The position numbers and the translations under genes are program-made. This document shows, one piece after another, positions 6,201-24,209 of a stretch of DNA of 24,920 bases; within the stretch, counting starts at the first letter, position 1; each line of letters starts with the position of its first letter. Below the pieces are notes generated by a model. That model saw only the letters and a program-made list of their open reading frames with translations. It was not told the DNA's origin and ran no database searches. This stretch comes from Saccoglossus kowalevskii (taxonomy: Eukaryota > Hemichordata > Enteropneusta > Harrimaniidae), in assembly GCF_000003605.2 (NCBI RefSeq), contig NW_003107098.1:55166-80085 (forward strand), given 5' to 3'.

Positions 6201-9200
6201 TAAATTGCCTAATAAAACTAAGTATTAAATAAATATGGTATTTATATTATATGTATGTTTCCATGATCTAACACATTGTATACCCCCATTGAATCAACAG
6301 CGATCGATGCCTGCCTCGGCAATCCTTGTCGAAATGGAGGATCCTGCAGCAACCACATTGACTTCTATACTTGCAGCTGTACCCACGAGTGGACTGGAAC
6401 CAACTGTGATACAGGTACGGTAGCGAATATGTTATGTGTTTGTTACGTTTATTTTATCAGCCTAGTAAACACATACCGCGGAAATAAATCGCAGTTTGGT
6501 TGTATTAATACACTGATGAGCAAGCAATTCATATCGCAACCAGTAGAGCTAGTACAATAAACAAGTATGTTTTCCATGTTTCAGTGGTTGATCTCTGCTT
6601 AAGTGGTCCATGCCGTAACGGTGCAACGTGTACGAATCTGTATACAGATTATATATGTACGTGTCAGATTGGGTATACTGGAGCAATATGTGATAAAGGT
6701 AAGTTGATTAGTTTCAATGTACATTTAAAGGGAGAAGTCGTCACCTGCGCATGCGTCAAATGACCATAGCGTGTCTTTGTTTATAAACAATCCTCTACCC
6801 ATGAACCTTTGCGTTTTTAGCGTGTGTTGTTATCGTCACTTGGGACTCAATTCCCGCGCGTGCGCAGATGACGACCCTCCCGCTTTAAAACCGGTCAGAT
6901 TGATCTGGTAATTTGTGTATACACGATGCAATTCATGTAATCTAACGGTGTGTGTTTGTTTGTGATCTCTTATACAGTTGTCAACTTATGCGAACATAAT
7001 CCTTGTTGGAACGGTGGTGTGTGTTTAAATAACAACGGCATTTCATACACGTGTCAGTGTCCTCAAGGGTGGATAGGCAACAACTGTCAGATTGGTAAGT
7101 TTTCCAATTCGGCGTCAATAGAATGTTCTCATATACTTCATATGCGGTATCTCATGGATACTATGAGGTTATTGCGAGGATACCTCAAAGTCGATGCGAC
7201 GGCGTACTGTCTGAGTGCATACTTTGAAGTACCCTCGTAATAACCTTATTATTGTACATCTTTTCCTTCCAAGGATACATCATGGGAGTGCCGAAATCCA
7301 AAAAGTTTCGAACAGAATTAGCGAATTTCTTGTGGGGTCCGGTCAAACCCCGGTGGCAGCCATGTTTGTTTTTAATATTAGAGGACGCTTAAGCACGTAA
7401 TCATTCCATATTTGGAATTCGCATTTCCTTATATGGTAGGATGAAAATACCCCGTAAAATACCGCACGATATGCCTTATGGCGTTACGGTGACAGATGTA
7501 TAATAATGGGTCATAATAGTACACGGTACACGACGTAAAAGTCACATGTTACAAAATTAAACATTTTTTCCAGGAATCGACGCCTGTGCCAGCAGTCCAT
7601 GTTTGAACGGTGCTGTGTGTTCCAACCAACAATCGCATTACACATGTCAGTGTCCTCCGGGGTATATGGGATACAATTGTCAAACTTGTAAGTAAAATAC
7701 AAATGTTACAGTTAGTAACAGTTTCGCTAAAAATCATGTTGTGTTTACTTGAATATGCTACGATAGAGAGAAGAATTTTTTTATAATATATACTAGTAGA
7801 TGATAACGGATTTCTAACCTTGCATTTTTTCTATCTACAATACAGTAATCGATATGTGCTACAACAACCCATGCCAGAACGGTGGTGTATGTAACAACTT
7901 TGGTAGTCATTATACGTGTCACTGCGCTGAGAGATACACGGGTCTAACTTGTGAACTTGGTGCGTATATTTACTTTCGCGAAATTATCGGTAATAAGTAC
8001 AGATACACTTGTATTGTATGTGGAATTTCAAACAAGTCGATACGAAGTCGCCAATGTGTAGCGTAAAAAGAGTCATGTTGGTTGTTTAAAAAGTCGGACA
8101 TATCATTCATTCGTTCATTCGTTCGTTCGTTCGTTCATGGTAACTTGAACCTACTGTCGTGTTCTTTTTGCAGAATTAGACGCATGTGCCAGCAGCCCAT
8201 GTCTGCGCAGTTCTGTGTGTGTTAACCTATACACATCGTACCGTTGCAATTGTTTACCTGGGTGGACCGGTCAACTCTGTAACATAGGTAAGATTGGATA
8301 TGTTAGGGTCGATACATCTCCCACCCCCTGTTTTTAGGAACATGTAAACAAAGCATCGTACACTGCAATATTATTTCACCACCTTAGTAACGATTTCCAA
8401 TTGCAGAAATCAATCTCTGTAACCAGAATCCGTGCTTGAATGGTGGTGTGTGTAGCAATCACCGAACATACTATGCTTGTCAGTGCGCCGACGGGTGGAC
8501 CGGACAAAACTGTGAAGTGGCTACTGACCTATGTGTGTCTCACCCATGTTTGAATGGTGGTGTGTGTTCCAATTACCAGACCAGATACACGTGTACTTGT
8601 TCTGACGGGTGGATGGGGGATACCTGTGGCATCGGTGAGTTCACGTTACAAATACGACTAACAGTTATATATATAAACATTGCAGGATATCATTATTATT
8701 ATAGATTGGACATTATAAGTACGGTACAATAGTACGAATTGTAACATTTATGTATTGTATTTGTGCTGTATTCATTGGTACTGGTGTGTTCTTATCTTGT
8801 CTATAATGTTTGTCACTCAGCCGTGAATCTGTGCGAACCTGATCCGTGTCTCAATGGAGGTATATGCAGTAACTATCAGACGTATTACATGTGCAGTTGT
8901 CCACGTGGTTGGACTGGATATAACTGCGGAACAGGTATGAACTGTGATGTATTTTGGGCATAGATGTGAAGCTGTTGTCTGTCGAATTGATTTTTTAAGG
9001 ATGTAGCAGACTTTCGTTGGGCAAAACAGAAAAAGCTTGATAAAAAAATAATACATGTACTGATTAGTGACTAACAATTTTTACATGTAATTGTAGCCAT
9101 AGCAACACTAAAAAATATCAAAAATATGATAACACTGATGTCGACGTTAATTACGTATGGTAAATAAACAAAATCTTTTGTGTTGCTATTTTTTTACTGC

Positions 9201-12200: not shown

Positions 12201-15200
12201 CTGTACAGCTCTCACGCCATGTGACAAACACCAGTGTGTAAATGGCGGTACATGCATTGCCGCTGCTCAGAACACTCACTATACCTGCAGGTGCGTTACG
12301 GGGTTTACTGGACCGTTCTGTGACATTAATATCAACGAATGCGCCAGCAATCCGTGTCTGAATGGTGCTGTCTGCAACGATCTCATCGGGAAATATACAT
12401 GCACGTGTACGAATGGATACTCTGGAATCAACTGTGAAAATGGTGAGCAGTACATCCGGGATATTCAACATCCGGGTATCTGAGATACCAGTGTTTTTTA
12501 TGTAATATTTTCTGAGCTGTAATCGGATCTTAACATTATAAACCCAAAATAGTATTACGTATTAGCCCAATTTTATTTTTGTTATGTTTTTACCACTTTC
12601 AGTCGCAGAGCGATGTCTGCCTAATCCATGCATGAATGGCGGCATTTGCACTAACTATGGTACTTACTATGTCTGTACATGTCAACCTGGGTGGACTGGA
12701 TCACAATGTGATGTCGGTACGTATTACTGTCCGTATTACTGTCCATGTTTCTGTCCATTGTCCCTTATCTCACCAATCACTCAATGTGCTCGTGTGACAT
12801 TCTGCGACTAAAAACAAGTGGTAAAATTGTCTCATATTAAATGTGTGTTTTTTTTTCATTTTAGAACAAAATTTATGTCAGAGCAGTCCATGTCTCAATG
12901 GTGGCACATGTTTCCATCAGCTTGGGCAGAGCTTTTACACGTGTCTTTGCGGCGATGGCTTCACAGGGCCACGATGCGAACTCGGTAAGTGCGCCACCAG
13001 CGACATATTGAACCCATTATTTTGTTTTTTCAAAACATTTAATAGCACATAGTAACTACGTATATTTCAGACTATATATGCATTTGCCAGGCTATTGTTG
13101 TTAAATTGTAATTTCTTTGCTTAGATTTAGACGAGTGTGCGCGCCATCCATGTCTGAATGGTGGTACTTGCACCGATGGTATTAATGGTTTCACGTGTTA
13201 CTGTCGACCTGGTTGGACCGGAACGCAGTGTGAAGTTGGTGAGTAATAAGTTCACCCTCGCTGAAAAGTACAATGCATAACCCTAATGTATATTACTCAA
13301 CTTCTTACATTTTACTTTAAAAGCTATATATTTCACTTTTCTATCTAGATATCAACGAGTGCTCGAGTAACCCATGTATCCACGGAGGTACGTGTATTAA
13401 CGGAGCCAATATGTTCACATGTCAGTGTCTACCGGGCTTCAATGGTGACTTATGTCAATTTGGTAAGTGTAACCCATCGGGTAACCCCTCATCACCGACA
13501 ATAATATCGGGAAAAAATTTAGTTCAATATTTGCAGTACGTCTCATATATACATTTCGGTTATTTTCCATAGAGATGAACGAGTGTGCCAGCAGCCCCTG
13601 TCTGAACGGTGGTACGTGTCTCGACATGCGGGGTTCCTACACATGTCAATGTCCAGCAGGTTTCCAAGGGCGTAATTGTGAACTAGGTGGGTGACGCAAT
13701 CCAAAAATTATCTTACTCCATGTTAATTTGTCATTTCTAGTTAAATTATGTTTGCCATGTGAACACTGTCACGAACGTTTGTGAAATTTTGATGGCAATA
13801 TAAATGTTCTGAGTCACTATTCTATATAAAATACAATATACATGTTTATTTGGTCCCGTAGCTATTGGATGTATTGCCGAGGTCGACATCACTGATGCCG
13901 GTATTGTTGAACTGCATTCACCAAATTACCCAGCCAACTACCCAGACAACGAGTACTGTCGTTGGATCGTGCGCTGCAGTCCAGGAAAACGTATTCAGGT
14001 GGTATTCCAGAATTTCTACACCGAATGGAAATACGACTGGGTTGACGTGGGCCTGTGGAGCGATGTGGCCGATCTGGGGTCACGTCTGTTGCACTGGTCG
14101 GGTCAGGAACTACCTCCCGCTATCATCACGGAGGGGACGGAGTGCTGGATTCGATTTACCTCGGATTACGAGAAGACAGAAAGCGGGTTTTCAGTGAGGG
14201 TGTATGAGACAGATCAAACTGATGGTAAGATTTTTAAAATCATTCTGCTTCAACCATCGAACTTGTTAGATTCACACTATGGCATCATATGAGTAAACTG
14301 GCACGATAGAGCTCAAACAATACTGTGAGTTTTGCGAAAACCTCAGCACTGACGGCGACTCGGGTAAGAGCACAACGAGAAGAATATTCGATTGTGTAAT
14401 TTCGTTTTTCCCTTTACAGTTGTGAATGAGTGTTCCAGCTCGCCTTGTAAGAATGGCGCTTCCTGTATCAATTCCATCAATAAATATGTGTGCGTCTGTT
14501 CTGATGAATGGCATGGAGTTAACTGTGAAACCAGAGTCAGTAAGTACAACTTAACAACTCAATTATCTTCACGCACGTCGATAACCTATTTATCAGTTGT
14601 TGTTTGTGTTATGTCATGTGCTATCTTTAAATGAGTACGTCATCACATCCACCATTATTGTTTACGCTTCCCTGGTACCAATTTCGGTTACGCAAACGCT
14701 TGTGACCGTGATCGTCATGATTTTTTTTACTCACTTTAAATTTTTGAATTATAGACATCAATGCTTGTTCCAGTAACCCATGTCCAATGTCGGCTACCTG
14801 TCTCGATACAGCGAGTAACTATGTGTGTATATGCCCAGATGATGTTGATCATTATTTATGCTCCAAAGGTAAGGTTTTACCAACCTATATAGAATGATTT
14901 GCAAAACCGTCGGATTTTATATTTTCTTAGCCTTGATTTTGCGTGTACCCTCTATGTGCATTCATAGATGTATACGTTTTATTGACAACTGAATGTACGT
15001 TATGTCTATTTCAGACTTTGATGTTTGTACTGAAAGTCCATGCCGCAACGGCGCCACGTGCGTGAAATATGGTAATGACTACACGTGTAACTGTGCACCT
15101 GGGTATGAAGGTCCCCTCTGCGATCAAGGTACGTATATTTGTCAACAAATGTTCATATATAAAATATAAGACAGCAATAATAGGCGTTTTCTTACACAGT

Positions 15201-17978
15201 CACTTGGGGCTGAAAATCAATAAATACTATTTTTTTTAAGAAATCATCCGCTATACACATATATAAATAAATGAAATCGGTAAGTAAGAAAAAAACTATG
15301 TATAAATCATTAAAATACAAATACAATTCTACCTGAAAACATAATACACGATATACCATATGCGTATAGCGTATGATTTAAAAAATATATATTTATTCAT
15401 TTTTAGCCCCCAAGTGACTGTGTTTTTTTAATATATAAGTGACGTAATTTCAAATTCAAAGTCATACATCTCGTCAAATAACTCACACGAGTAAATGCGT
15501 GTTCTTGTATACTTATTTCTTGACTGTATTATTTCATATAGAAGTAAACGAGTGTGCTCCCACGCCTTGTCAGAATGGTGGTACGTGTGTCGACGGTATG
15601 AACTCCTACACGTGTTACTGTACTCCAGGGTACGAGGGCACAAGATGTGAAGTTTGTAAGTATATTAGACAATGCTCCGTATAACATAATTATATTCAAC
15701 TTATTTATTCGATTGTTTTTTTGTTTTTTCCCCAATAACGACTCTTATTGAATGAATTGTGTTTCAGCGTTAACTGGCTGTGCTGCCTTGCCATGTCGGA
15801 ATGGTGCTCAGTGTCTGGATCTTGTCGGTGGTGGCGTGCAGTGCAATTGTGTGGCCGGATTTTCGGGTTCAAGATGTGAAAACGGTAATTAAGAAAAAAA
15901 CTATGTGTGAAGACATAATACTAGTACACGATATACCATTTCATACATACTTCAAGACAATTGTGGCGATATTATAAACTTGATACATATCACACATTAT
16001 ATTTTCTCTCACTCTTCTCTTCACCTACAGACAACGATGAGTGTATAAGTAGCCCGTGTCAGCATGATGGATATTGTATCAACGACATCAATAAATTCGC
16101 ATGCGTGTGTCCTTCTGGATGGCGCGGGGAACGCTGCGAACTGCGTAAGTATGACTTGTGAAACATTGGCCATACATTGACAAACGTATAACTAATCCAT
16201 GTAATACTAGTATATACTCCAGTACTACTATAAGTTGTAGCCTTCTATATTTAAAGCAGGACGATCGTCACCTGCGCACGAGCGGGAATTGAGTCCCAAT
16301 CGACGATAACAACACACACTAAAAACGCAAATGCTCATGGGTAGACGCTTGTTTGTAACAATGACACGCTATGGCCATCTTTAAAATTTAAAATTAAATA
16401 CTTAGTCACGACAAGTTAAATGTCGTCGTATACATTATACAACTTTCATTTGTATTTATGTTTACATGATATTTGTTTTTTATGCACAGCTGACCAGTGC
16501 TTCAGTAGCCCATGCATGAACGGTGGCACGTGTCACGACATGGAATACGGTGGATACGCATGCGTTTGTCCAGCGGGTTTATCCGGGGAGAACTGCGAGT
16601 TTGGTAAGTCTCAAAATGAATCCCTGATTACATGTCGCATAAAGTACATGTACTTAAAAATGATAATTTAGAATATAGGTTACCATATCTAAATATTTTA
16701 TCTGTGATGTTTTCTTCAATATATTGCAGGCGTTGTGAGCCACTGCGTAGGTATGGTCAATCCGTGTTCTAATGGAGCTACGTGTGTGTCCATTCAGAAT
16801 GGTTCTCCCCGATGTGTTTGCACCTCGTCGTACACTGGCGAATACTGCGAGACTTGTAAGTGAACTTTGATACATGTTTGATTGCGTCGTTTACTGTACT
16901 CTGTATACGCGACGAAGCTTGCGTGCGTTTGAATGTTGCAGTGTGCAAAACCATTAAACCTGGAATCATTGCCCGAAAAAAATATCTTAATTACTCAATC
17001 TAATAAACTTTCTCATTTTCTCTCTAGATGTCGGCATGTGTGGTAACCATCAGTGTAGAAACGGCGGTTATTGCGTTTCCGTGGACCACGAAAGTAGATA
17101 TACATGTACATGTGAGCCTGGGTGGACTGGAGAATATTGTGAAACAGGTGAGTTGAGCAACGCCACCAACGGCAACATATTAATATATTTGTTTTTATTC
17201 AAATATCTTTGTTGAATTAGTTTTATGTGTAAAGTAGGCAATAATGCAGTTTCCACATTAATATTGGCTTAACCTAACATTTTATCACTCTTTGCGTGAC
17301 GTATTTAGATATCGACGAATGTTCAAGCCAACCATGTATGAATGGTGCTACATGTTTGAACGAACTGGATAAGTTTACATGTAACTGTTTGCCTGGTTAC
17401 GAAGGCGATCTCTGCAGTCTTGGTGAGTGGATATTCTTTGTGAACAAATGTCCCCTTAACACACTGAACACCTCTCAATATTCCGACTGTAGCAAAGTCG
17501 TACATCGATGGATATTCATACATACGATCACTTCCAGCTGTGACGCAACACATCCATCTGTGGTCCGATGGAGTACGATAGCGCCCTCCCCGTGAAACTC
17601 ACATTACGAGTGTGACTGACTCAGTGTTCAACACTTTTCAATGAAACAAACCAAATATATCAAATTCGCTCATAGAAAATTTGGTTCAGCAGAATGTGTT
17701 GCGTGGTCCAGTGTGTCACTTGATAACGGATAATCTGTACAGCAATCTAATACAGTATGCACATGGCACGACGAATTAACGTTATTGTTAACAATACTTC
17801 ATTCAAATTATTCTATTCGTTTACAGTTCCTACTGTCAACACATCTGGTGGTATCAATTGGTTTTGGATCATGTTTGCGTCGTTGCTTGCGTGCATTATT
17901 CTAGTACTTTTCTTGGTGCTGGGATATTGTATGTGCACAGAAAAACGTAAGAAAAAGAAGAGCGAGAGCACAGCTTGA
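1..17978 (+). CDS. Giant EGF-repeat/CUB single-pass membrane protein, 3' part of gene (50 exons)
   Basis: Spliced coding region, partial at the 5' side. Join: <1-318, 442-555, 728-841, 939-1970, 2120-2233, 2421-2534, 2637-2750, 3254-3367, 3489-3602, 3709-3822, 3945-4058, 4189-4302, 4398-4511, 4618-4845, 4959-5072, 5270-5383, 5503-5616, 6062-6175, 6301-6414, 6585-6698, 6978-7094, 7574-7687, 7846-7959, 8174-8287, 8407-8634, 8821-8934, 9328-9444, 9653-9766, 9990-10103, 10663-10776, 11649-11762, 11973-12086, 12209-12442, 12603-12716, 12865-12984, 13125-13238, 13349-13462, 13573-13686, 13862-14224, 14420-14539, 14755-14868, 15015-15128, 15542-15655, 15768-15884, 16031-16144, 16490-16603, 16730-16855, 17028-17147, 17309-17422, 17827-17978. 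The frame begins at base 3 and stays open through every junction: about 2,497 residues plus stop. Modules are 51 EGFs, CUB, 10 EGFs, one helix and a short basic tail. In known families such proteins are extracellular adhesion, matrix or receptor molecules; the ligand and role here cannot be read from sequence. Exon numbers are window-local. Confidence 0.9.
442..555 (+). CDS. Exon 2: EGF 4
   Basis: One 38-residue EGF. The calcium motif is broken (DFDFC instead of DxDEC), while the Asp hydroxylation pattern C-x-D-x4-Y-x-C-x-C is kept. Acceptor TTTCAG, donor A|GTAAGT at 556. The donor sits inside a 31-bp tandem duplication. Confidence 0.92.
728..841 (+). CDS. Exon 3: EGF 5, calcium-binding type
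   Basis: One EGF starting INEC after the junction codon (A|AT gives Asn). Six cysteines in the usual spacing, plus the hydroxylation consensus [12 protein letters not shown]. Acceptor TTTAG, donor G|GTGAGT. Confidence 0.92.
939..1970 (+). CDS. Exon 4: nine fused calcium-binding EGFs (EGF 6-14)
   Basis: A single 1,032-bp exon (344 codons) with nine back-to-back EGFs and no intron. All nine carry the E-C calcium signature (INEC, FDEC, INEC, IDEC, YDEC, TDEC, VDEC, LNEC, IDEC). EGF 9, 10, 11, 13 and 14 also have the O-fucose Thr. EGF 14 has a longer C3-C4 loop containing two prolines. Acceptor AATAG, donor G|GTGAGT. Its size contrasts with the 114-bp one-domain exons around it. Confidence 0.95.
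2120..2233 (+). CDS. Exon 5: EGF 15
   Basis: One EGF with EIDMC, so the calcium Glu is replaced by Met. O-fucose consensus is present (CINGATC). The loop reads [12 protein letters not shown], the signature that typifies the later non-calcium block. Acceptor follows a long T tract; donor G|GTGAGA. Confidence 0.92.
2421..2534 (+). CDS. Exon 6: EGF 16, calcium-binding type
   Basis: One EGF with DFDEC and loop [12 protein letters not shown]. No O-fucose Thr (CQNGGMC). Acceptor GTTTCAG, donor G|GTAAGA. Confidence 0.92.
2637..2750 (+). CDS. Exon 7: EGF 17, calcium-binding type
   Basis: One EGF with DINEC and O-fucose Thr (CLNGGTC). Loop [12 protein letters not shown]. It is the last calcium-type EGF before a run of 28 without the Glu. 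Acceptor TTCTAG, donor G|GTAAGA. Confidence 0.92.
2751..3253 (+). other. Intron 7 (503 bp)
   Basis: AT-rich intron without coding potential in the gene frame. It holds the ATT microsatellite described separately, which ends about 15 bp before the acceptor. A pyrimidine stretch of TTCTTCTATTTC separates the repeat from TAG. Confidence 0.8.
3148..3238. repeat. (ATT)n microsatellite, about 90 bp
   Basis: About 30 nearly uninterrupted copies of ATT/TTA, with one irregularity near 3158. It lies just upstream of the exon 8 acceptor, so length changes could alter branch-point spacing. Confidence 0.95.
3254..3367 (+). CDS. Exon 8: EGF 18, with an unusual donor site
   Basis: One EGF with EIDMC and loop [12 protein letters not shown]. 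The phase-preserving end at 3367 uses the weak donor G|GTTGGT. A better-looking donor G|GTAAAG lies 4 bp downstream at 3372. Using that one would shift the frame and create TGA at the junction with exon 9. The 3367 end is chosen because it gives the standard 114 bp and keeps the frame. Confidence 0.82.
3489..3602 (+). CDS. Exon 9: EGF 19
   Basis: One EGF with EVNLC, Leu at the calcium Glu position. Loop [12 protein letters not shown]; no O-fucose Thr (CLNGAEC). Acceptor TTTAG, donor G|GTAATA. Confidence 0.92.
3709..3822 (+). CDS. Exon 10: EGF 20
   Basis: One EGF with EINPC, loop [12 protein letters not shown] and CANGGQC in the C2-C3 interval. Acceptor CCCACAG, donor G|GTAGTC, which is weak at positions +4 to +6. 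Confidence 0.9.
3945..4058 (+). CDS. Exon 11: EGF 21
   Basis: One EGF with AVDAC and loop [12 protein letters not shown]. The junction codon GCT gives Ala, in place of the Glu or Asp found at most earlier junctions. Acceptor CCCGTAG, donor G|GTGAGT. Confidence 0.92.
4189..4302 (+). CDS. Exon 12: EGF 22
   Basis: One EGF with ELNPC and loop [12 protein letters not shown]. It opens with the same ELNPC as exon 13, suggesting a local exon duplication. Acceptor TTTACAG, donor G|GTAAGT. Confidence 0.92.
4398..4511 (+). CDS. Exon 13: EGF 23
   Basis: One EGF with ELNPC and loop [13 protein letters not shown]2-C3 reads CLNNGAC, without O-fucose Thr. Only 95 bp of intron separate it from exon 12, and the intron includes a run of C. 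Acceptor TTTCAG, donor G|GTGAGT. Confidence 0.92.
4618..4845 (+). CDS. Exon 14: EGF 24-25 (double exon)
   Basis: 228 bp, exactly two 114-bp units, encoding two EGFs with no intron (EIDLC, then VINLC). Both C2-C3 intervals read CLNGGVC. The inner junction codon is GTC, consistent with clean loss of an intron between two standard modules. Confidence 0.93.
4959..5072 (+). CDS. Exon 15: EGF 26
   Basis: One EGF with AVDMC and loop [12 protein letters not shown]. No O-fucose Thr (CLNGGFC). Acceptor GAATAG, donor G|GTAAAT. Confidence 0.92.
5270..5383 (+). CDS. Exon 16: EGF 27
   Basis: One EGF with EINLC, loop [12 protein letters not shown] and O-fucose Thr (CKNGATC). It ends in A rather than G (A|GTAAGT), so the junction codon with exon 17 is AGA (Arg). 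Confidence 0.92.
5503..5616 (+). CDS. Exon 17: EGF 28
   Basis: One EGF with RVDAC, loop [12 protein letters not shown] and O-fucose Thr (CQNGGTC). Acceptor GTACAG, donor G|GTGAGG. The following intron contains MITE A1. Confidence 0.92.
5757..6016 (+). mobile_element. MITE A1, TTAA-flanked non-autonomous DNA element (260 bp)
   Basis: Flanked by TTAA on both sides. The ends are imperfect inverted repeats of about 30 bp: the left begins TTAAAGCGCGGTAGTCGACG and the right, read in reverse, TTAAAGTGCGGTAGCGGTCG. Both run into CGCTGCGC. No coding capacity. It sits in intron 17, ending 45 bp before the exon 18 acceptor. A diverged, oppositely oriented copy is at 10226-10523. TTAA targets are typical of piggyBac and Kolobok elements; which applies is not determined. 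Confidence 0.88.
6062..6175 (+). CDS. Exon 18: EGF 29
   Basis: One EGF with EMNPC and loop [13 protein letters not shown]-fucose Thr present (CFNGGTC). Acceptor ATTTCAG lies just past MITE A1. Donor G|GTATGT. Confidence 0.91.
6301..6414 (+). CDS. Exon 19: EGF 30
   Basis: One EGF with AIDAC and loop [12 protein letters not shown]. Ser before C3 gives an O-fucose consensus (CRNGGSC). Acceptor TCAACAG, donor G|GTACGG. Confidence 0.91.
6585..6698 (+). CDS. Exon 20: EGF 31
   Basis: One EGF with VVDLC, loop [12 protein letters not shown] and O-fucose Thr (CRNGATC). It is the fifth and last of a run (EGF 27-31) with that consensus. Acceptor GTTTCAG, donor G|GTAAGT. Confidence 0.92.
6725..6888 (+). 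mobile_element. MITE B1, TTAA-flanked (164 bp)
   Basis: TTAA at both ends. End sequence contains GTCGTCACCTGCGCATGCG, and the other end in reverse contains GTCATCTGCGCACGCGCGGG. It lies in intron 20. Full-length relative at 23455-23619 (same orientation) and a shortened, inverted relative at 16251-16384. No coding capacity. Confidence 0.88.
6978..7094 (+). CDS. Exon 21: EGF 32
   Basis: 117 bp: one extra codon in the C3-C4 loop ([13 protein letters not shown]). Opens VVNLC. The C2-C3 interval has an unusual Trp (CWNGGVC). Acceptor TACAG, donor G|GTAAGT. Confidence 0.91.
7095..7573 (+). other. Intron 21 (479 bp)
   Basis: Noncoding. Contains the 27-bp-arm inverted repeat at 7165-7247. The rest has no recognised element. 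Confidence 0.75.
7165..7247. repeat. Inverted repeat with 27-bp arms (possible MITE core)
   Basis: Arms 7165-7191 (begins GAGGTTATTGCGAGGATACC) and 7221-7247 are reverse complements with about four mismatches, separated by 29 bp. Could be a palindromic transposon fragment. Also able to fold as a hairpin in the pre-mRNA. Confidence 0.75.
7574..7687 (+). CDS. Exon 22: EGF 33
   Basis: One EGF with GIDAC and loop [12 protein letters not shown]. It ends in T (T|GTAAGT), so the junction codon with exon 23 is TTA (Leu). Splicing to exon 24 or 25, which start AA, would give TAA. Confidence 0.91.
7846..7959 (+). CDS. Exon 23: EGF 34
   Basis: One EGF with LIDMC and loop [12 protein letters not shown]. 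The first two bases are TA. Acceptor TACAG, donor G|GTGCGT. Confidence 0.91.
8102..8138. repeat. (TTCG/TTCA)n tetranucleotide repeat
   Basis: About nine copies of TTCG or TTCA in intron 23, 35 bp before the exon 24 acceptor. Confidence 0.9.
8174..8287 (+). CDS. Exon 24: EGF 35
   Basis: One EGF with ELDAC. The C2-C3 interval CLRSSVC departs from the near-universal NG pair. Loop [12 protein letters not shown]. Acceptor TTTGCAG, donor G|GTAAGA. Confidence 0.9.
8407..8634 (+). CDS. Exon 25: EGF 36-37 (double exon)
   Basis: 228 bp, two EGFs without an intron (EINLC; TDLC at the second). Both C2-C3 intervals read CLNGGVC, as in double exon 14. Acceptor TTGCAG, donor G|GTGAGT. Confidence 0.92.
8821..8934 (+). 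CDS. Exon 26: EGF 38
   Basis: One EGF with AVNLC and loop [12 protein letters not shown]. Acceptor CACTCAG, donor G|GTATGA. Confidence 0.91.
8935..9327 (+). other. Intron 26 (393 bp)
   Basis: AT-rich. Ends in a long TTTATTTATTT tract before the acceptor. No element recognised. Confidence 0.7.
9328..9444 (+). CDS. Exon 27: EGF 39
   Basis: 117 bp; the extra codon lies between C1 and C2 (CLPHNPC). Opens AINLC. Loop [12 protein letters not shown]. Acceptor TTTTCAG, donor G|GTAGGA. Confidence 0.9.
9653..9766 (+). CDS. Exon 28: EGF 40
   Basis: One EGF with ALNQC and loop [13 protein letters not shown]-fucose Thr present (CQNSGTC), isolated within a stretch that mostly lacks it. Acceptor GCATAG, donor G|GTACGT. 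Confidence 0.91.
9990..10103 (+). CDS. Exon 29: EGF 41
   Basis: One EGF with VIDFC and loop [12 protein letters not shown]. Acceptor TCTGCAG, donor G|GTAAGT. The following 559-bp intron is mostly MITE A2. Confidence 0.91.
10226..10523 (-). mobile_element. MITE A2, TTAA-flanked (298 bp), inverted relative to A1
   Basis: TTAA at both ends. Left end reads TTAAAGCACGGTGGTCGTCG, the right in reverse TTAAAGGACGGTAGACGTCG. Interior matches the reverse complement of A1: for example CTCTTCAAATGGAAATCACA, and a GACTCCTTCGATACCTTCCA segment. It lies in intron 29. About 38 bp longer than A1, partly near the right end. Confidence 0.88.
10663..10776 (+). CDS. Exon 30: EGF 42
   Basis: One EGF with AVDAC and loop [13 protein letters not shown]2-C3 reads CQHNGVC. 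Acceptor CCTCAG, donor G|GTAAGA. Confidence 0.91.
10777..11648 (+). other. Intron 30 (872 bp), longest intron of the gene here
   Basis: AT-rich noncoding sequence. A diverged direct repeat (ATTATTCTGGCAGCAAAGTA near 10806; ATTTTATTCTGATAGCAAAG near 10987) hints at an old duplicated or transposed fragment. Nothing else recognised. Confidence 0.7.
11649..11762 (+). CDS. Exon 31: EGF 43
   Basis: One EGF opening AKDHC; loop [13 protein letters not shown]2-C3 CQHGALC. Acceptor GTTACAG, donor G|GTAAGT. Confidence 0.9.
11973..12086 (+). CDS. Exon 32: EGF 44
   Basis: One EGF opening ATGLC, with no acidic residue before C1. Loop [12 protein letters not shown]. Acceptor CTTTCAG, donor G|GTGAGT. Confidence 0.9.
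12209..12442 (+). CDS. Exon 33: EGF 45-46 (double exon)
   Basis: 234 bp. EGF 45 opens ALTPC and has a two-residue-longer loop ([14 protein letters not shown]). EGF 46 is calcium type (NINEC, loop [12 protein letters not shown]). EGF 46 is the first with the Glu after 28 EGFs without it. Acceptor GTACAG, donor G|GTGAGC. Confidence 0.92.
12603..12716 (+). CDS. Exon 34: EGF 47
   Basis: One EGF opening VAERC; loop [12 protein letters not shown]. Acceptor CTTTCAG, donor G|GTACGT. The intron that follows starts with short GTATTACTGTCC repeats. Confidence 0.91.
12865..12984 (+). CDS. Exon 35: EGF 48
   Basis: 120 bp; two extra codons in the C3-C4 loop ([14 protein letters not shown]). Opens EQNLC. 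First of eight consecutive EGFs (48-55) with Ser or Thr at the O-fucose position. Donor G|GTAAGT. Confidence 0.91.
13125..13238 (+). CDS. Exon 36: EGF 49, calcium-binding type
   Basis: DLDEC, loop [13 protein letters not shown]-fucose Thr. Acceptor GCTTAG, donor G|GTGAGT. Confidence 0.92.
13349..13462 (+). CDS. Exon 37: EGF 50, calcium-binding type
   Basis: DINEC, loop [13 protein letters not shown]-fucose Thr (CIHGGTC). Acceptor ATCTAG, donor G|GTAAGT. Confidence 0.92.
13573..13686 (+). CDS. Exon 38: EGF 51
   Basis: EMNEC, loop [13 protein letters not shown]-fucose Thr. Last EGF before the CUB. Acceptor CCATAG, donor G|GTGGGT. Confidence 0.92.
13862..14224 (+). CDS. Exon 39: CUB domain
   Basis: A 363-bp exon encoding a whole 121-residue CUB domain. 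Landmarks are SPNYPANYP (residues 20-28), YCRWIV (32-37), YDWVDV (58-63), LPPAI (84-88) and the SD...GF pattern (101-110). Glu55, Asp59 and Asp102 fit the calcium site of calcium-binding CUBs. The cysteines are Cys4, Cys33, Cys39 and Cys95. The usual second pair (one Cys just before the YDxV strand and one before the LPP turn) is missing, so a Cys39-Cys95 bond is inferred. CUB plus EGF is the layout of fibropellins and of many secreted or membrane adhesion proteins. The acceptor is CCCGTAG; the donor is G|GTAAGA. Confidence 0.95.
14420..14539 (+). CDS. Exon 40: EGF 52
   Basis: 120 bp; VVNEC, loop [12 protein letters not shown], Ser at the O-fucose site (CKNGASC). Tail after the last Cys is longer (ETRV) and the exon ends A|GTAAGT. 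Confidence 0.91.
14755..14868 (+). CDS. Exon 41: EGF 53 (degenerate)
   Basis: NINAC opening. C2-C3 is CPMSATC, without the NG pair. The C5-C6 segment DDVDHYLC lacks the usual GWxG turn. All six cysteines are kept. Acceptor TATAG, donor G|GTAAGG. Confidence 0.88.
15015..15128 (+). CDS. Exon 42: EGF 54
   Basis: DFDVC opening, loop [13 protein letters not shown]-fucose Thr. Acceptor TTTCAG, donor G|GTACGT. The following intron is largely MITE C. Confidence 0.91.
15195..15422. mobile_element. MITE C, 228-bp element with ~60-bp terminal inverted repeats
   Basis: Ends are CACAGTCACTTGGGG and its complement CCCCCAAGTGACTGTG. The inverted match continues, with small gaps, to about 15256 on the left and from about 15364 on the right. 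Flanks TTTTCTTA and TTTTTTTA could be an 8-bp target duplication with one mismatch, but they are low-complexity. Located in intron 42; no coding capacity. Confidence 0.85.
15542..15655 (+). CDS. Exon 43: EGF 55
   Basis: EVNEC, loop [13 protein letters not shown]-fucose Thr (CQNGGTC). Ends in T (T|GTAAGT), giving TCG (Ser) at the next junction. Confidence 0.92.
15768..15884 (+). CDS. Exon 44: EGF 56
   Basis: 117 bp; opens SLTGC, loop [13 protein letters not shown], which has Val in place of the aromatic residue before C4. Donor G|GTAATT is followed at once by sequence shared with the interior of MITE C. Confidence 0.9.
16031..16144 (+). CDS. Exon 45: EGF 57, calcium-binding type
   Basis: NDEC, loop [13 protein letters not shown]2-C3 CQHDGYC. 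Ends in C (C|GTAAGT), giving CCT (Pro) at the next junction. Acceptor CCTACAG. Confidence 0.91.
16251..16384 (-). mobile_element. MITE B2, shortened copy (134 bp), inverted
   Basis: Reverse complement of B1/B3 for most of its length, TTAA at both ends. The B start end has lost about 30 bp: the sequence goes from GCTATGGCCATC directly to TTTAA, so one inverted repeat is missing. Located in intron 45. Confidence 0.85.
16490..16603 (+). CDS. Exon 46: EGF 58
   Basis: Short lead before C1 (PDQC), compensated by a longer C3-C4 loop ([13 protein letters not shown]). O-fucose Thr present. Acceptor GCACAG, donor G|GTAAGT. Confidence 0.9.
16730..16855 (+). CDS. Exon 47: EGF 59
   Basis: 126 bp; longer C1-C2 interval (CVGMVNPC) and loop [13 protein letters not shown] without the hydroxylation consensus. 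O-fucose Thr present (CSNGATC). Ends T|GTAAGT. Confidence 0.9.
17028..17147 (+). CDS. Exon 48: EGF 60
   Basis: 120 bp; opens YVGMC, C1-C2 CGNHQC, loop [14 protein letters not shown]. Acceptor CTCTAG, donor G|GTGAGT. Confidence 0.9.
17309..17422 (+). CDS. Exon 49: EGF 61, calcium-binding type, membrane-proximal
   Basis: DIDEC, loop [13 protein letters not shown]-fucose Thr. Last EGF before the membrane. Donor G|GTGAGT; a 404-bp intron without recognised elements follows. Confidence 0.92.
17827..17978 (+). CDS. Exon 50: transmembrane helix, basic tail and stop
   Basis: Junction codon GTT, then a short Thr/Ser/Gly stalk ([10 protein letters not shown]). A hydrophobic helix of about 24 residues follows, from WFWIMF to LGYCMC. 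The tail of about 13 residues ([13 protein letters not shown]) precedes TGA at 17976. Cysteines at the inner membrane edge could be palmitoylated (inference). The tail has no recognised signalling or PDZ-binding motif, so the protein looks like an anchored adhesion or ligand-type molecule more than a signalling receptor. Acceptor TTTACAG. Confidence 0.93.
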
Positions 17979-18732: not shown

Positions 18733-21099
18733 GCTTTCTTTAATTTAGCAAATGAAATTTCGAGAAAAATACACTACACTACTATTATTTCAAAAAGACT
18801 AGTCCCTTCAAATTTCAATATTTTTCAAGTTCTGCATATAATGTTCGCCATGCTGGGAGTAGTCATAACGCTAAGATTAAAAACAATCAAGTTCGGTAAC
18901 AGTATAGTGTACCGGTCTGTGCTACAATCTCTCTATCAAATGGCGATATCCAGGCGTCAACCAGGCACTATCACTTGCACTCCAGTGGACGAATCTCTGC
19001 TAGTGGAATATACTTTCCCATTGACTATGTGACACACTCACCCAGGTGCAACAACTACTAAGCTACAAGTGTCTGGTTTGTACAATTCTTCGTAGAATAT
19101 GTTTTCTACTGTTTACACTGGCAAATATTTCAAAACAGTTACACAATTTAAGCATGTCCGGATAATATTCATTTTAATGGCAGAAAAATACGATGTCCAC
19201 ACTATGATTCATAGTTCAATTGTTGAACAATTCGACAAAATATAATCGTGACAGGGCGTATACTCACTTCACCCATCCGTACCTGGCAGTGACAGTAAGT
19301 ATTGTTATGCAAACAAGAAGACCCGGAAATTGACAATGAGTCACCAATACCACACCATCGTAAAATTATACAGTGGCGGCTCTCCGACACGAAGTTATCC
19401 CAGTTACGTCGTACTCAACAGGGTTGTCTTTTCAGAGATTGGAGGTGAAAGATTACCTTCGCGGAAATAAATATCCCTTTAGTACGAGTCACAAGGTTAA
19501 CATTGCCAAGAGGAAAATTCCGCTTGTGTCTTTCCAACAAAAGAATAAGTTATAGATCAATCATGGTACCAATGCAACAACAATTTTAAATGTATCGTTC
19601 CGTTTAGTTACACATTGCGTACGTTTTCGTATTAGCCCCTTCCGTATAATATCAGAGGATGTTATTACGTAATAACGATTAATAACTGCTACACGTGCTT
19701 AACATCCACATGTTTTATATAAAAATCTTAATATTTCGTATTTTCCAATGCCAAGGCCCTGTCCACTGGATTACGATTATTATCGATTAGCGGGTAACTC
19801 GGCAAATTATTTTATGTTTCCATGGGTTACGGGGTGTGCACATGCAATACCAATGGCGATAATATAAATGACATGTACACGGACCACGTATACTAGTATT
19901 ATATATATTTTAGTAAAACATTTGTTCGGTTTTGTTGGAACTAAACATCAAGTTAGTGCATATATATATCACCACATATTAACGATCATAGAAATGGAAT
20001 CACGGCATAGTGTCAAAAATAACATGACACGTGATAAAAAAGCATTGCCTCCGTTGCTAGGCAACATGGTGACTTTGATGATAACGTCAACAGGTAGATG
20101 ATTTCATCGGGTGTACCATCATTTATCCTTAGGTATACAGGCTGTGCACATGAACAAGGAACATTTCGCAGAGAAAATCTAAAGATATTTTTACATGGAG
20201 AGAAGCATAATCTGTACACATGGTCCTGGGCAAAAATGAGATTAGCGGTGCATTCTGTGTGGCCGCGCACCTTGAATAATTGGCTCGGTATTTCACAATC
20301 AATTCACACATTCGCCAGGAGTGGTTTCGGTCTCCAGGGATGGGGTATTGCTATTTCACGTAAAGTTTGAAATTCTTTTCATATTCTGACAGTCAGTCAT
20401 CACAGTTCTATGTCTAGTAAAAAAAAAAACGCGAAAGCATCGTAAAGAGCGAGAGAGAAGGAAATGAAAAAGGACATTACATACCGGATATAGTAATCTT
20501 TTCAAATACACTACAAAAATAAATATAAAAAATAGCAAATGGTAATTTAAATGTTTGGCATCGAGCGAATTGTTATGCAACGGCGTTAACCGAATCATTA
20601 ACACCAAATTCCCGTGCTGGGCTCTGCCTGATTTCATTATAATGCGATCGGGGACATTTTACAGTTACGGTTCAGTTGTAAAATTGTACATATCACAGCG
20701 AGGTATAAGAAACACCTAAATATCGTTTCAACATACACCGTGGAGTATTTTGGCACCGGGATTATGCTAAACACACCATTCCGTGTTATCAGGCCCCAGA
20801 GCAGCCTACTGTATGTACATGTGCATTGCAATACGGGGGAACAGGAGATTGTGGGCGACGCTTCGGTGAACGGATTTGCATGACAATTGGTGTCAGAATT
20901 CCTAATAATGCAAACGTACGAGCTTCATCAATATTTAAAAATAGGGTGATGGCCGCACAAAAAACACGCTCCCACAATTCACCTTTGCAGCGAAAGTGAG
21001 TCGACGGCTTCTGTTATTACTGTCATTGATACTTTGTGTTGAGAGTATTTGGCGTGTGGTTTATGGCCGTGCTCCTATGCAGGTGATACACAGGGAAAC
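18733..21099. other. Intergenic region and 5' flank of the Reeler gene
   Basis: No convincing gene: the open frames are short, lack domains and overlap each other on both strands. A 16-bp perfect palindrome with core TTACGTAA is at 19661-19676. A TATA-like stretch TATTTAAAAATAG lies at 20932-20944, about 160 bp before the ATG at 21100, but promoter use is unproven. Confidence 0.6.
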
Positions 21100-21298
21100 A
21101 TGGCGGCTTCATATCGGGATGTGTTTATTTTATTTTTTACGATATGTGTGGATGTTACTCGGACTTACCGAACGGGCGCTCCACAATCAGCGTGCTTTGA
21201 TATGACTCCCAATCACGGGTACTCCGCACAACTGACAGACAGTCCTTATATTATTACATCGAGCGTACAGGAATACACCCCTGGTCAGCGAGTTACAG
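21100..21298 (+). CDS. First coding exon of a Reeler-domain secreted or membrane protein (partial gene)
   Basis: The ATG at 21100 has a good context (A at -3, G at +4). An in-frame TGA at 21040 rules out a more upstream start in this exon. Residues 1-25 form a signal peptide with hydrophobic core VFILFFTICV. It is followed by GAPQSACFDMTPNHG, a SPY pair and EYTPGQRVTG: the N-terminal signature of the Reeler domain (GAP..AC..M.P.HG....SPY....Y.PG..V.V). Exon ends in phase 1 at G|GTAAGT. Reeler domains start reelin, F-spondin, ferric-chelate reductase (FRRS1)-like and insect-type defence proteins; one exon cannot separate these. The remaining exons are not recognised in the window. Confidence 0.83.
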
Positions 21299-22446
21299 GT
21301 AAGTGTATGCTATAACAACGTAACTCTCGTCCCAGTTAGACGAAAATCGTGCCCTGTCTTAACAGGAGCGTGTATGATTTGTATTATCCTCTGTCTCATT
21401 TTGCAACATGGCAGGTGCGCGTCTCCGTTTAACCAGGATCACCACGCCCTGTCGTATGAAAACTCAAGATTCTTCGGATACCATATGATCGACCAACTTC
21501 GAGCGCCACACTCAAAATACCAATACAAAAAACCTTCTATTTTCTAGAACATTTGACTGTCTGGGACAAGCAGGCCAACCGTGAAAATCACCAAGCAATA
21601 ACTACCCGTGTTTATATATTTTGTATGAAAATGTGATGTCAATATAACTTAAGATGTTGTTTTGGCGCAACTAATTTCGACGTTTATACTCGATTTACTC
21701 AAAATTTCACCTGTTTTAAAAGCTGCAAGGTCGAAGATCGAAATCTAAATCAGAAATTTGAAACGATTTTACTCTGTTAGTGTTACTTTATACAAGTGAA
21801 TTTCTCTCATGCGTAGCACACGTTTTGTTAGAGTGAATAGCTGACGTTTTAAATCTGTTGACTCGACCTCAGTGCTATGTTGACGATCTCATGCGTTCAC
21901 AGAAGAGAAAAGAAAGAAATTGGACAATAAAATGTTTCACGGTAGTGGAATTTTACGTGTCACCACCCAAAAGTGAGTAAGTCCACAAGAGCAAGTTCGA
22001 CACTCTGTAAATTAACATTGGCAATTGGTCGCCCTGGGCGTTTTAGGGGCGAGATATAATGCAGAATCAAAGATTACTTACATCGTGGTTTGTGGTGCCT
22101 CGTAGTCAACCTGACGCTCCTGTAGGTAGTAATTTAACAGTGTAACAGAATATCCGTTTTAGCATAGGAACGGCAATCTGACCTAGCGCCATTTACAAAT
22201 GTAATTTTATTACCCCATTGTTGTGTAGGAGTATAAATACTGTCAAGCGAGCTCCCTTACCAAAACCATCTGTGACAGGATCGAAATAATCTCTATTATG
22301 ACCAATGTTGTCGAATTTTGTTGTCGAGGGTGAATGGACATTCCTGCATATCAATTGTAATGCAATGTGCGTCAACTCTGTACCACTCGTGTCACTTAAT
22401 GGTAATACATGTATATTAAACTAGTGTGCGTGTTAGTATTAGTATT

Positions 22447-22644: not shown

Positions 22645-23454
22645 CTACGGCTCGTTGCAATTGTGTGCCTCGCTCGGTTGTATCTCTGAGGTTGTATCGC
22701 ATATTCTGTACACTTCGCGCTTCTTCGAATTCGGAAATTGCGTATTTCTTCATGGGATACATGGGATAGCTAGTGTCATATATACATAATTTCTCTCAGC
22801 GTATCAGCGTAATCTGGTTAGCGGTAAAAACTGGGTGTGTTATTTTTGAGGTGGGGTGTTCGAAACAGCCGATGATGAATGCGTCGTATTTAAAATGACC
22901 CGAGTTATCTCTTTCGAAACGAAGACCACTATACCGTGATTTCAACGCATCTCGGTGTAGAATATTATCTATTCGGTCGATTACTAATATTTATTTATTT
23001 ATTTACTTATTGACTCTTACACAATCCCCGGAGGGAAAGAAAATGGTCACAAAGTACAAGGAGAAATGTATATATAAAAAAACAAAACAAAAACACAATA
23101 TACTAAATAACAAATAACAAATACAATCACTAAATTACTAAATAATACAAAATCTCTAAAATACAATCTAATATAAAATTACAAAATTGACAGTAGGCAT
23201 TAAGATGTCAAGTAAGACCCTGCTTCCTGACTTCAAAGCTTTTACTTATGAACTGTGCTACTGGTATAATAATGTTTTCAATAATAAGTTCACTGACACG
23301 GGGAATGCATGCACAGAATATTGACAACAATAACATCCAGTAACGCTTAATATACTAGTAATCCAAACAACTGGGTGTTCATCCAAGAACGTGCCGTGTT
23401 CCGCTATGATGACCAAAATGTTTCCTTGTTTATTATAAACTCAGACAACTAATG

Positions 23455-23619
23455 TTAAAGCGGGGAAGTCATCACCTGCGCATGCGTCCGATGGCCATAG
23501 CGTGTCATTTTTTACAAACAAGCATCTGCTCATGAGCCTTTGCGTTTTTAGCGAGAATTGTTATCGTCGCTTGGTACTCAATTCCCGCGCGTACGCAGGT
23601 GACGAACCTTCCGCTTTAA
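23455..23619 (+). mobile_element. MITE B3, TTAA-flanked (165 bp)
   Basis: TTAA at both ends. Start reads TTAAAGCGGGGAAGTCATCA followed by CCTGCGCATGCG. The other end in reverse begins TTAAAGCGGAAGGTTCGTCA followed by CCTGCGTACGCG. Closely matches B1 along its length, including CCATAGCGTGTC and TTTGCGTTTTTAGCG. Best-preserved copy of family B in the window. Confidence 0.88.
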
Positions 23620-23796
23620 CTGTTAAATGTAGTTGTCTCAGATCAGATACGCGATGTTACGTTCAGTAATTTTATATATCAGATATATGGCGTTGCGTAG
23701 ACTAATTTTAGTATATAAGTATCAGATACGTGATCGCATAGTGATTCATATGAACTATGATTTCAACTAATTTCACGAGGACAAAATTCCCCGGAC

Positions 23797-23834
23797 CACA
23801 GTCACTCTACTAGGACCCTAGTAGAGTGACTGTG
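23797..23834. mobile_element. Micro palindromic element 1 (38 bp) with 7-bp flanking duplication
   Basis: Perfect inverted repeat: an 18-bp arm CACAGTCACTCTACTAGG, a 2-bp centre, then its exact complement. Immediately flanked on both sides by CCCGGAC (23790-23796 and 23835-23841), as expected for a transposon target-site duplication. Confidence 0.75.
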
Positions 23835-23871
23835 CCCGGACGAATGCGTCATGCAAGTGGCAATATATCAT

Positions 23872-23905
23872 CACAGTCCCTCAACACCGGTGTTGAGGGA
23901 CTGTG
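23872..23905. mobile_element. Micro palindromic element 2 (34 bp) with 7-bp flanking duplication
   Basis: Perfect inverted repeat with no centre: arms of 17 bp, the left being CACAGTCCCTCAACACC. Flanked on both sides by ATATCAT (23865-23871 and 23906-23912). The first 11 bases differ from element 1 at one position. Confidence 0.75.
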
Positions 23906-24209
23906 ATATCATATACACTTTTAGACAGGGGTCAGCGAACTTCTGATTTTACTTTGACACAAAGCAATGAAGTCGTTTCAATGCTAACTATCGAATCGAA
24001 ACAAGTCTCCCAAACATGACCAATAATGATGTAATTCGCTTAAAATATGTGATATATATATGTAGCACACTCAGTGTGATCATTCCTTTCCAACAAATCG
24101 TGACATCCGAACAATAGACGTAGGTGACTTATTGTACGAGCTGCGACGTCTCTTATTGTTTCATGACAACATGTATTCAACGTCATAACATTGCCAAACC
24201 CCTCCCACT

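Follow-up and report, generated by a model that had tools for sequence, protein, structure and literature searches.

Two short palindromes in a stretch of Saccoglossus kowalevskii DNA (24,920 nucleotides; hereafter the window) are, with high confidence, healed excision footprints of P-superfamily transposons and not miniature elements. Each consists of two stubs of transposon ends, joined head to head between two copies of a 7-bp target site duplication (TSD). The host genome in which we analysed them (572 Mb; the window lies on its contig C175) contains many sites of the same anatomy, as well as longer elements with the same ends.

Two palindromes in the window

Element 1 (23797-23834) is 38 bp long, with perfect 18-bp arms around an AC centre, while element 2 (23872-23905) is 34 bp long, with perfect 17-bp arms and no centre. 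The two are 37 bp apart and both are flanked by exact 7-bp repeats (Table 1), which confirms the coordinates and letters given by an earlier reading made from the sequence alone (the sequence-only reading). In ten windows simulated with a first-order Markov model, allowing a gap of up to 12, the longest perfect arm was 9-11 bp, versus arms of 18 and 19 bp in the actual window; element 2 scores 19 here because the edges of its TSD add 2 bp.

We refer to elements 1 and 2 as scars 1 and 2. The stubs of scar 1 correspond to one subfamily of transposon ends (T2) and those of scar 2 to another (T3). In several full T2 elements, CGG comes after the 19-nt sequence that forms the left stub of scar 1. 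The junction C of this scar could be an inserted nucleotide or could belong to the left end as its base 20; the two cases are indistinguishable. In scar 2 the stubs abut, with nothing lost and nothing inserted.

Table 1. Anatomy of the two scars in window coordinates.
Feature	Position	Strand	Remarks
Left TSD copy, scar 1	23790..23796	.	CCCGGAC; identical to 23835-23841
Left stub, scar 1	23797..23815	+	T2-type end, first 19 nt, CACAGTCACTCTACTAGGA
Junction, scar 1	23816..23816	.	C, 1 nt; 19 + 1 + 18 split
Right stub, scar 1	23817..23834	-	18 nt of the opposite T2-type end
Right TSD copy, scar 1	23835..23841	.	CCCGGAC
Left TSD copy, scar 2	23865..23871	.	ATATCAT
Left stub, scar 2	23872..23888	+	T3-type end, complete 17 nt, CACAGTCCCTCAACACC
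Right stub, scar 2	23889..23905	-	Opposite T3-type end, complete 17 nt
Right TSD copy, scar 2	23906..23912	.	ATATCAT

A genome-wide palindrome family with 7-bp duplications

We queried the genome for the pattern CACAGTCMCTCN{8,24}GAGKGACTGTG, which is slightly wider than the one proposed in the sequence-only reading, and used the reversed pattern as a control. Matches were found at 270 places, versus none for the reversed control. Flanks were read for 50 of the 270 matches, representing 49 distinct sites (one match is nested within another). Among the matches listed, the 7-bp flanks were identical at 33 sites and differed by one mismatch at 11, by two at one and by three or more at four, so that 44/49 palindromes had at most one TSD mismatch. 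A seed-independent subset of 31 sites gave a similar picture (20 exact, seven with one mismatch, none with two and four with three or more); the probability of obtaining 27 or more of 31 by chance is ~9e-74. The eighth flanking base agreed at 13/77 and 15/77 exact-TSD sites, which is about the level of chance, and the duplication is therefore 7 bp long. The target preference of the scars is roughly RTTWAAY.

These counts bear out much of the sequence-only reading, which had suggested a transposon origin with independent, real 7-bp target duplications and had called for further copies in the genome, most of them with 7-bp direct flanks. They also bear on the possibility that the sites are chance palindromes, assembly artefacts or hairpin-forming regulatory sites. 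Such sites could share the palindromic form, and 5/49 palindromes among the matches listed lack a good TSD, with two or more mismatches, which counts against an origin as scars as well. Set against the empty control and the TSDs at the other 44, this explanation is vanishingly improbable. Viral contigs scanned for the palindromes yielded one match (L005), and its flanking 7-mers disagree.

Subfamilies and full-length elements

The ends were grouped into three subfamilies by 17-nt seeds: T1 (CACAGTCCCTCTATCAC, 163 genome matches), T2 (CACAGTCACTCTACTAG, 139 matches, the type of scar 1) and T3 (CACAGTCCCTCAACACC, 111 matches, the type of scar 2). We sampled 63 T1 loci (L019-L048 and L106-L138), 68 T2 loci (L049-L078, L139-L158 and 18/20 stretches of L159-L178) and 40 T3 loci (L179-L218). 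Scar 1 is included as L056/L057, and scar 2 lies outside the sample. With a palindromic scar counted as two ends, the samples comprise 176 distinct ends. L168 and L169 were kept outside the counts; they were retrieved along with the T2 set but have T1 ends, and TGTG comes next in both.

Longer elements sharing the palindrome ends, which the sequence-only reading had suggested looking for, do occur; those with exact 7-bp TSDs are between 167 bp and about 1.5 kb long. The T1 set includes elements of 616 bp (L027) and 318 bp (L044/L045), the T2 set four full elements of 1135, 1491, 1156 and 641 bp (L161-L167) and the T3 set one of 167 bp (L198). Their full ends commonly continue with CGG and a related block (CGGTCTGG in T1, CGGTTAGG in T2 and CGGTTGGGAAACGCTATTGTT in T3). 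This block motif was found within 11 mismatches at 14/26 end-bearing loci tested, and is absent after some ends, such as the left ends of L044 and L198. For 61/176 sampled ends there was no TSD within 75 bp. Some of these are element ends, and those that resist classification include L113, L119 and L142.

A second T2 end type, CACAGTCACTCTCCTAG, was tried and dropped; many of its 50 matches sit within a recurrent 30-mer (see below), and some fall outside it. Copies of this sequence were clustered at G000:C3951:8142-8617 and C4454:73895-74057, several of those on C3951 at 65-bp spacing, as if a scar had joined a tandem array.

Retained ends stop at a fixed limit

An excision footprint should hold both TSD copies and stubs no longer than the stagger of the cut. 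As the seeds impose at least 17 retained nucleotides, the informative part of each end is the letters after base 17. At short TSD-flanked sites, T1 ends never continued into element base C18 (0/41 ends, at 39 sites), versus 10/21 T1 ends lacking a TSD in the adjacent 75 bp (p = 3e-6). For T3, C18 was present in 3/26 TSD-flanked ends versus 8/18 without a TSD (p = 0.03), the exceptions being an insert-bearing scar, read on both strands (L197), and an internal deletion (L207). These two loci are also the only ones at which TSD-flanked T1 or T3 ends reach the CGG block. Among the 48 TSD-flanked T2 ends, 20 end at base 17, two at 18, 24 at 19, two at 20 and none further; annealing at CTAG explains 14 of the 20 that stop at 17.

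The stubs as retained thus measure 17 nt in T1 and T3 and about 19 nt in T2. These limits are sharp, and breaks scattered through the element interiors are therefore not what the ends show. Scattered break points are what would be predicted if the palindromes were internal-deletion derivatives of MITEs that had lost nearly all of their interior through abortive gap repair, whereas none of the 41 T1 ends extended past base 17 and none of the 48 T2 ends past base 20. L207, in which about 45 nt of one end survive, is such a derivative, and it counts against the scar reading to the extent that this route also exists. As an account of the palindromes in general, we consider internal deletion very unlikely.

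The limits of ~19 nt in T2 and 17 nt in T1 and T3 both fall just before the same CGG. One tentative possibility, about which we remain somewhat doubtful, is that the transposase positions its inner cut relative to the internal CGG block and does not measure from the tip, in which case the long stagger would be adjustable.

L207 itself is a 59-bp internally deleted T3 derivative with the exact TSD GTAGAAC, possibly formed by aborted gap repair.

One-sided scars and junction types

Junctions were read at 100 sites, each counted once. The repeat copies L123, L143 and L159 were dropped from this set, which still includes the non-scar L207. At 25/100 sites the total length was at most 24 bp, comprising one end and 0-7 nt from its partner. 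L108 and L078 have a single end joined directly to the TSD, and L054 and L145 hold 18 nt of one end, or 17 nt and the last G of the other. An exact match to at most 6 nt of one end was seen at 34/100 sites, point-mutated copies included. Scars trimmed at both sides are under-counted, because the seeds demand one complete 17-nt stub.

The stubs overlapped by at least 1 nt at 44 of the 100 sites (at 24 of them by at least 2 nt), were joined bluntly at 20 and were separated by inserted or mutated letters at 36. Several products recur with different TSDs: 17 nt followed by TGTG at 13 places (with L019 and L123 representing copies of a single repeat), GGA|GAGTG at 14 loci and a CTAG-annealed 30-mer at seven loci. 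The T1 element end L044 continues with TGTG, and the 21-bp product could alternatively represent 21 nt of such an end. Judged by eye, L035, L111, L109, L063, L197 and L203 hold repeated stub pieces, as from templated synthesis.

These observations bear most directly on the proposal of the sequence-only reading that the palindromes form a TIR-only transposon family, that is, miniature transposons made of two abutted inverted repeats and inserting as such. Shared ends, perfect arms, 7-bp TSDs and identical 30-mers at many sites agree with that proposal, and its core, a derivation from transposons, stands. The insertion of palindromes as such does not. The 25 sites of at most 24 bp are too short for two ends and therefore cannot have inserted as two-ended elements, and L108 and L078 are one-ended but have TSDs; a TIR-only element or MITE would bring two complete ends with every inserted copy. 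Moreover, the interiors vary through trimming, microhomology and templated inserts, and the TSD-flanked T1 and T3 ends stop before the CGG block, with the two exceptions given above. We therefore regard TIR-only transposons as extremely unlikely; the fixed stub limit and the one-ended sites instead point to full elements that would have inserted and then been excised.

Copies of a repeat, R1 (L076, L100, L143, L146, L159, L071 and L149), carry differing scars or deletions at one GTCCTAG site. The variants are perhaps independent excisions from paralogous copies. We did not count R1 as evidence because some of its variants can be related by descent, L149 by secondary deletion.

A predicted P-type transposase between related ends

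Thirteen matches to PF21787 were found genome-wide. The best of these lies in a 7,942-bp element (C1630:10113-18054) bounded by 30-bp perfect terminal inverted repeats (TIRs). The left end of this element has 88% identity over 51 bp to a T3 element end (E 9e-14), with one change within the first 17 nt. An ORF inside the element contains a TNP-like RNase H N domain (PF21787, E 1e-27) and a downstream ORF a TNP-like RNase H C domain (PF21789, E 1e-6). The first ORF also gave a weak match to the structure of the Drosophila P transposase, 6p5a (E 0.005, or 0.14 for the best stretch alone), and the scan of the two ORFs revealed neither a THAP nor a GTP-binding domain. Judging by this predicted gene, the transposase class behind the palindromes is the P superfamily.

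Of the features expected of that superfamily, TNP-like RNase H domains between TIRs were found in one copy only, the C1630 element, and a TSD of 7-8 bp is present at the palindromes and the full elements but not at this copy. Its flanks disagree (AGTGGGT / GCAATAC), and therefore the copy may be rearranged. That the C1630 element is a single copy with unmatched 7-bp flanks and a weak match to 6p5a counts against the scar reading. No CACAGTC-type end pairs with a TSD were seen at the 13 PF21787 loci of about 3.4 kb, and the 12 matches other than C1630 are untied to T1, T2 or T3 ends. A transposase on C2261 (L012) has a similar subterminal block with seven mismatches, but the sequence read there contained no inverted partner.

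Ends related to RAG or Transib were also considered, as CACAGTC resembles the RAG heptamer, CACAGTG. This candidate was dropped; Transib produces a TSD of 5 bp and not 7 bp, and the transposase enclosed in the C1630 element is predicted to be P-type.

Excision, repair and comparison with known systems

In the scar explanation, a full P-superfamily element would insert and duplicate 7 bp of target. A P-type transposase would later excise it with a long stagger, cutting one strand at the tip and the other 17 nt (T1, T3) or ~19 nt (T2) inside the element. The broken chromosome ends would keep 3' single-stranded tails corresponding to the terminal 17-19 nt of the element. Filled in and joined, these tails would leave no more than ~34-38 bp between the target copies, in the form of a palindrome because the two element ends are inverted copies. 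Trimming, microhomology annealing and small templated inserts would yield the shorter, lopsided or longer variants. The analogy with Drosophila is our basis for proposing this cut chemistry, single-stranded tails and an alternative end-joining (polymerase-theta-like) repair pathway.

One strand of the P element is cut by its transposase at the 3' end and the opposite strand 17 bp into the element (PMC7776569); after excision, the donor ends carry 17-nt 3' overhangs (PMC2895639). Repair products of P{wa} in Drosophila melanogaster consist of an 8-bp duplication, tails of up to 17 nt, a microhomology, blunt or insert junction and again the 8-bp duplication, and so share with our scars the order of TSD, TIR stubs of up to 17 nt, junction and TSD (PMC2895639). 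Lopsided P{wa} products also occur, with most of the left tail, CAT and the last G of the right tail (PMC2895639). Those products are laboratory events at one site with an 8-bp TSD and tails of up to 17 nt (PMC2895639), whereas the scars described here are natural, occur at many sites with a 7-bp TSD and, in T2, have stubs of about 19 nt.

Two further systems can be compared. Galileo, a member of the P superfamily, is like the scars in its 7-bp TSD and in a palindromic target preference (GTATTAC or GTAGTAC), but differs from the scar family in its long Foldback-like TIRs (PMC4168063, PMC2775673). The main text of one of these Galileo papers does not use the word "footprint" (PMC4168063). Zebrafish Pdre2 / THAP9 is alike in having a P-type transposase outside flies, with excision shown, but Pdre2 differs in its 13-bp TIR (CATACCTGTCAAC), 8-bp TSD and larger flanking deletions (PMC10983969). 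Among the matches listed, the open-licence PMC literature contained no genome-wide census of P-type excision scars.

Biochemical work on the Drosophila element has established the long stagger of P-type transposases. With natural scars in their hundreds, a genome would make the cut position, its variation among subfamilies and the end-joining habits of another germline readable from sequence alone. Former P-type activity can also be recognised from scars where few full copies are left, and short palindromes with target duplications may be mistaken for miniature transposons.

Other features of the window

A 228-bp element at 15195-15422 of the window has inverted ends of ~18 bp, CACAGTCACTTGGGG(G)GCT, with one 1-nt difference. 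Its flanks, TTTCTTA/TTTTTTT, agree at 5/7 positions. The element has the CACAGTCAC tip in common with the scar family and lacks the CGG block; it is possibly a distant relative. A separate fold-back, MITE-like repeat (CTCAGACAACTA...) lies at 23440-23641, with stretches of 86% identity at 6725-6888 and 16251-16379. ORFs on the + strand with EGF repeats, a CUB domain and a Reeler domain were found at 854-2059, 13813-14289 and 21043-21312; these domains, like the size of the genome, point to an animal host. More EGF-like ORFs lie between these three, and together they perhaps belong to one large gene.
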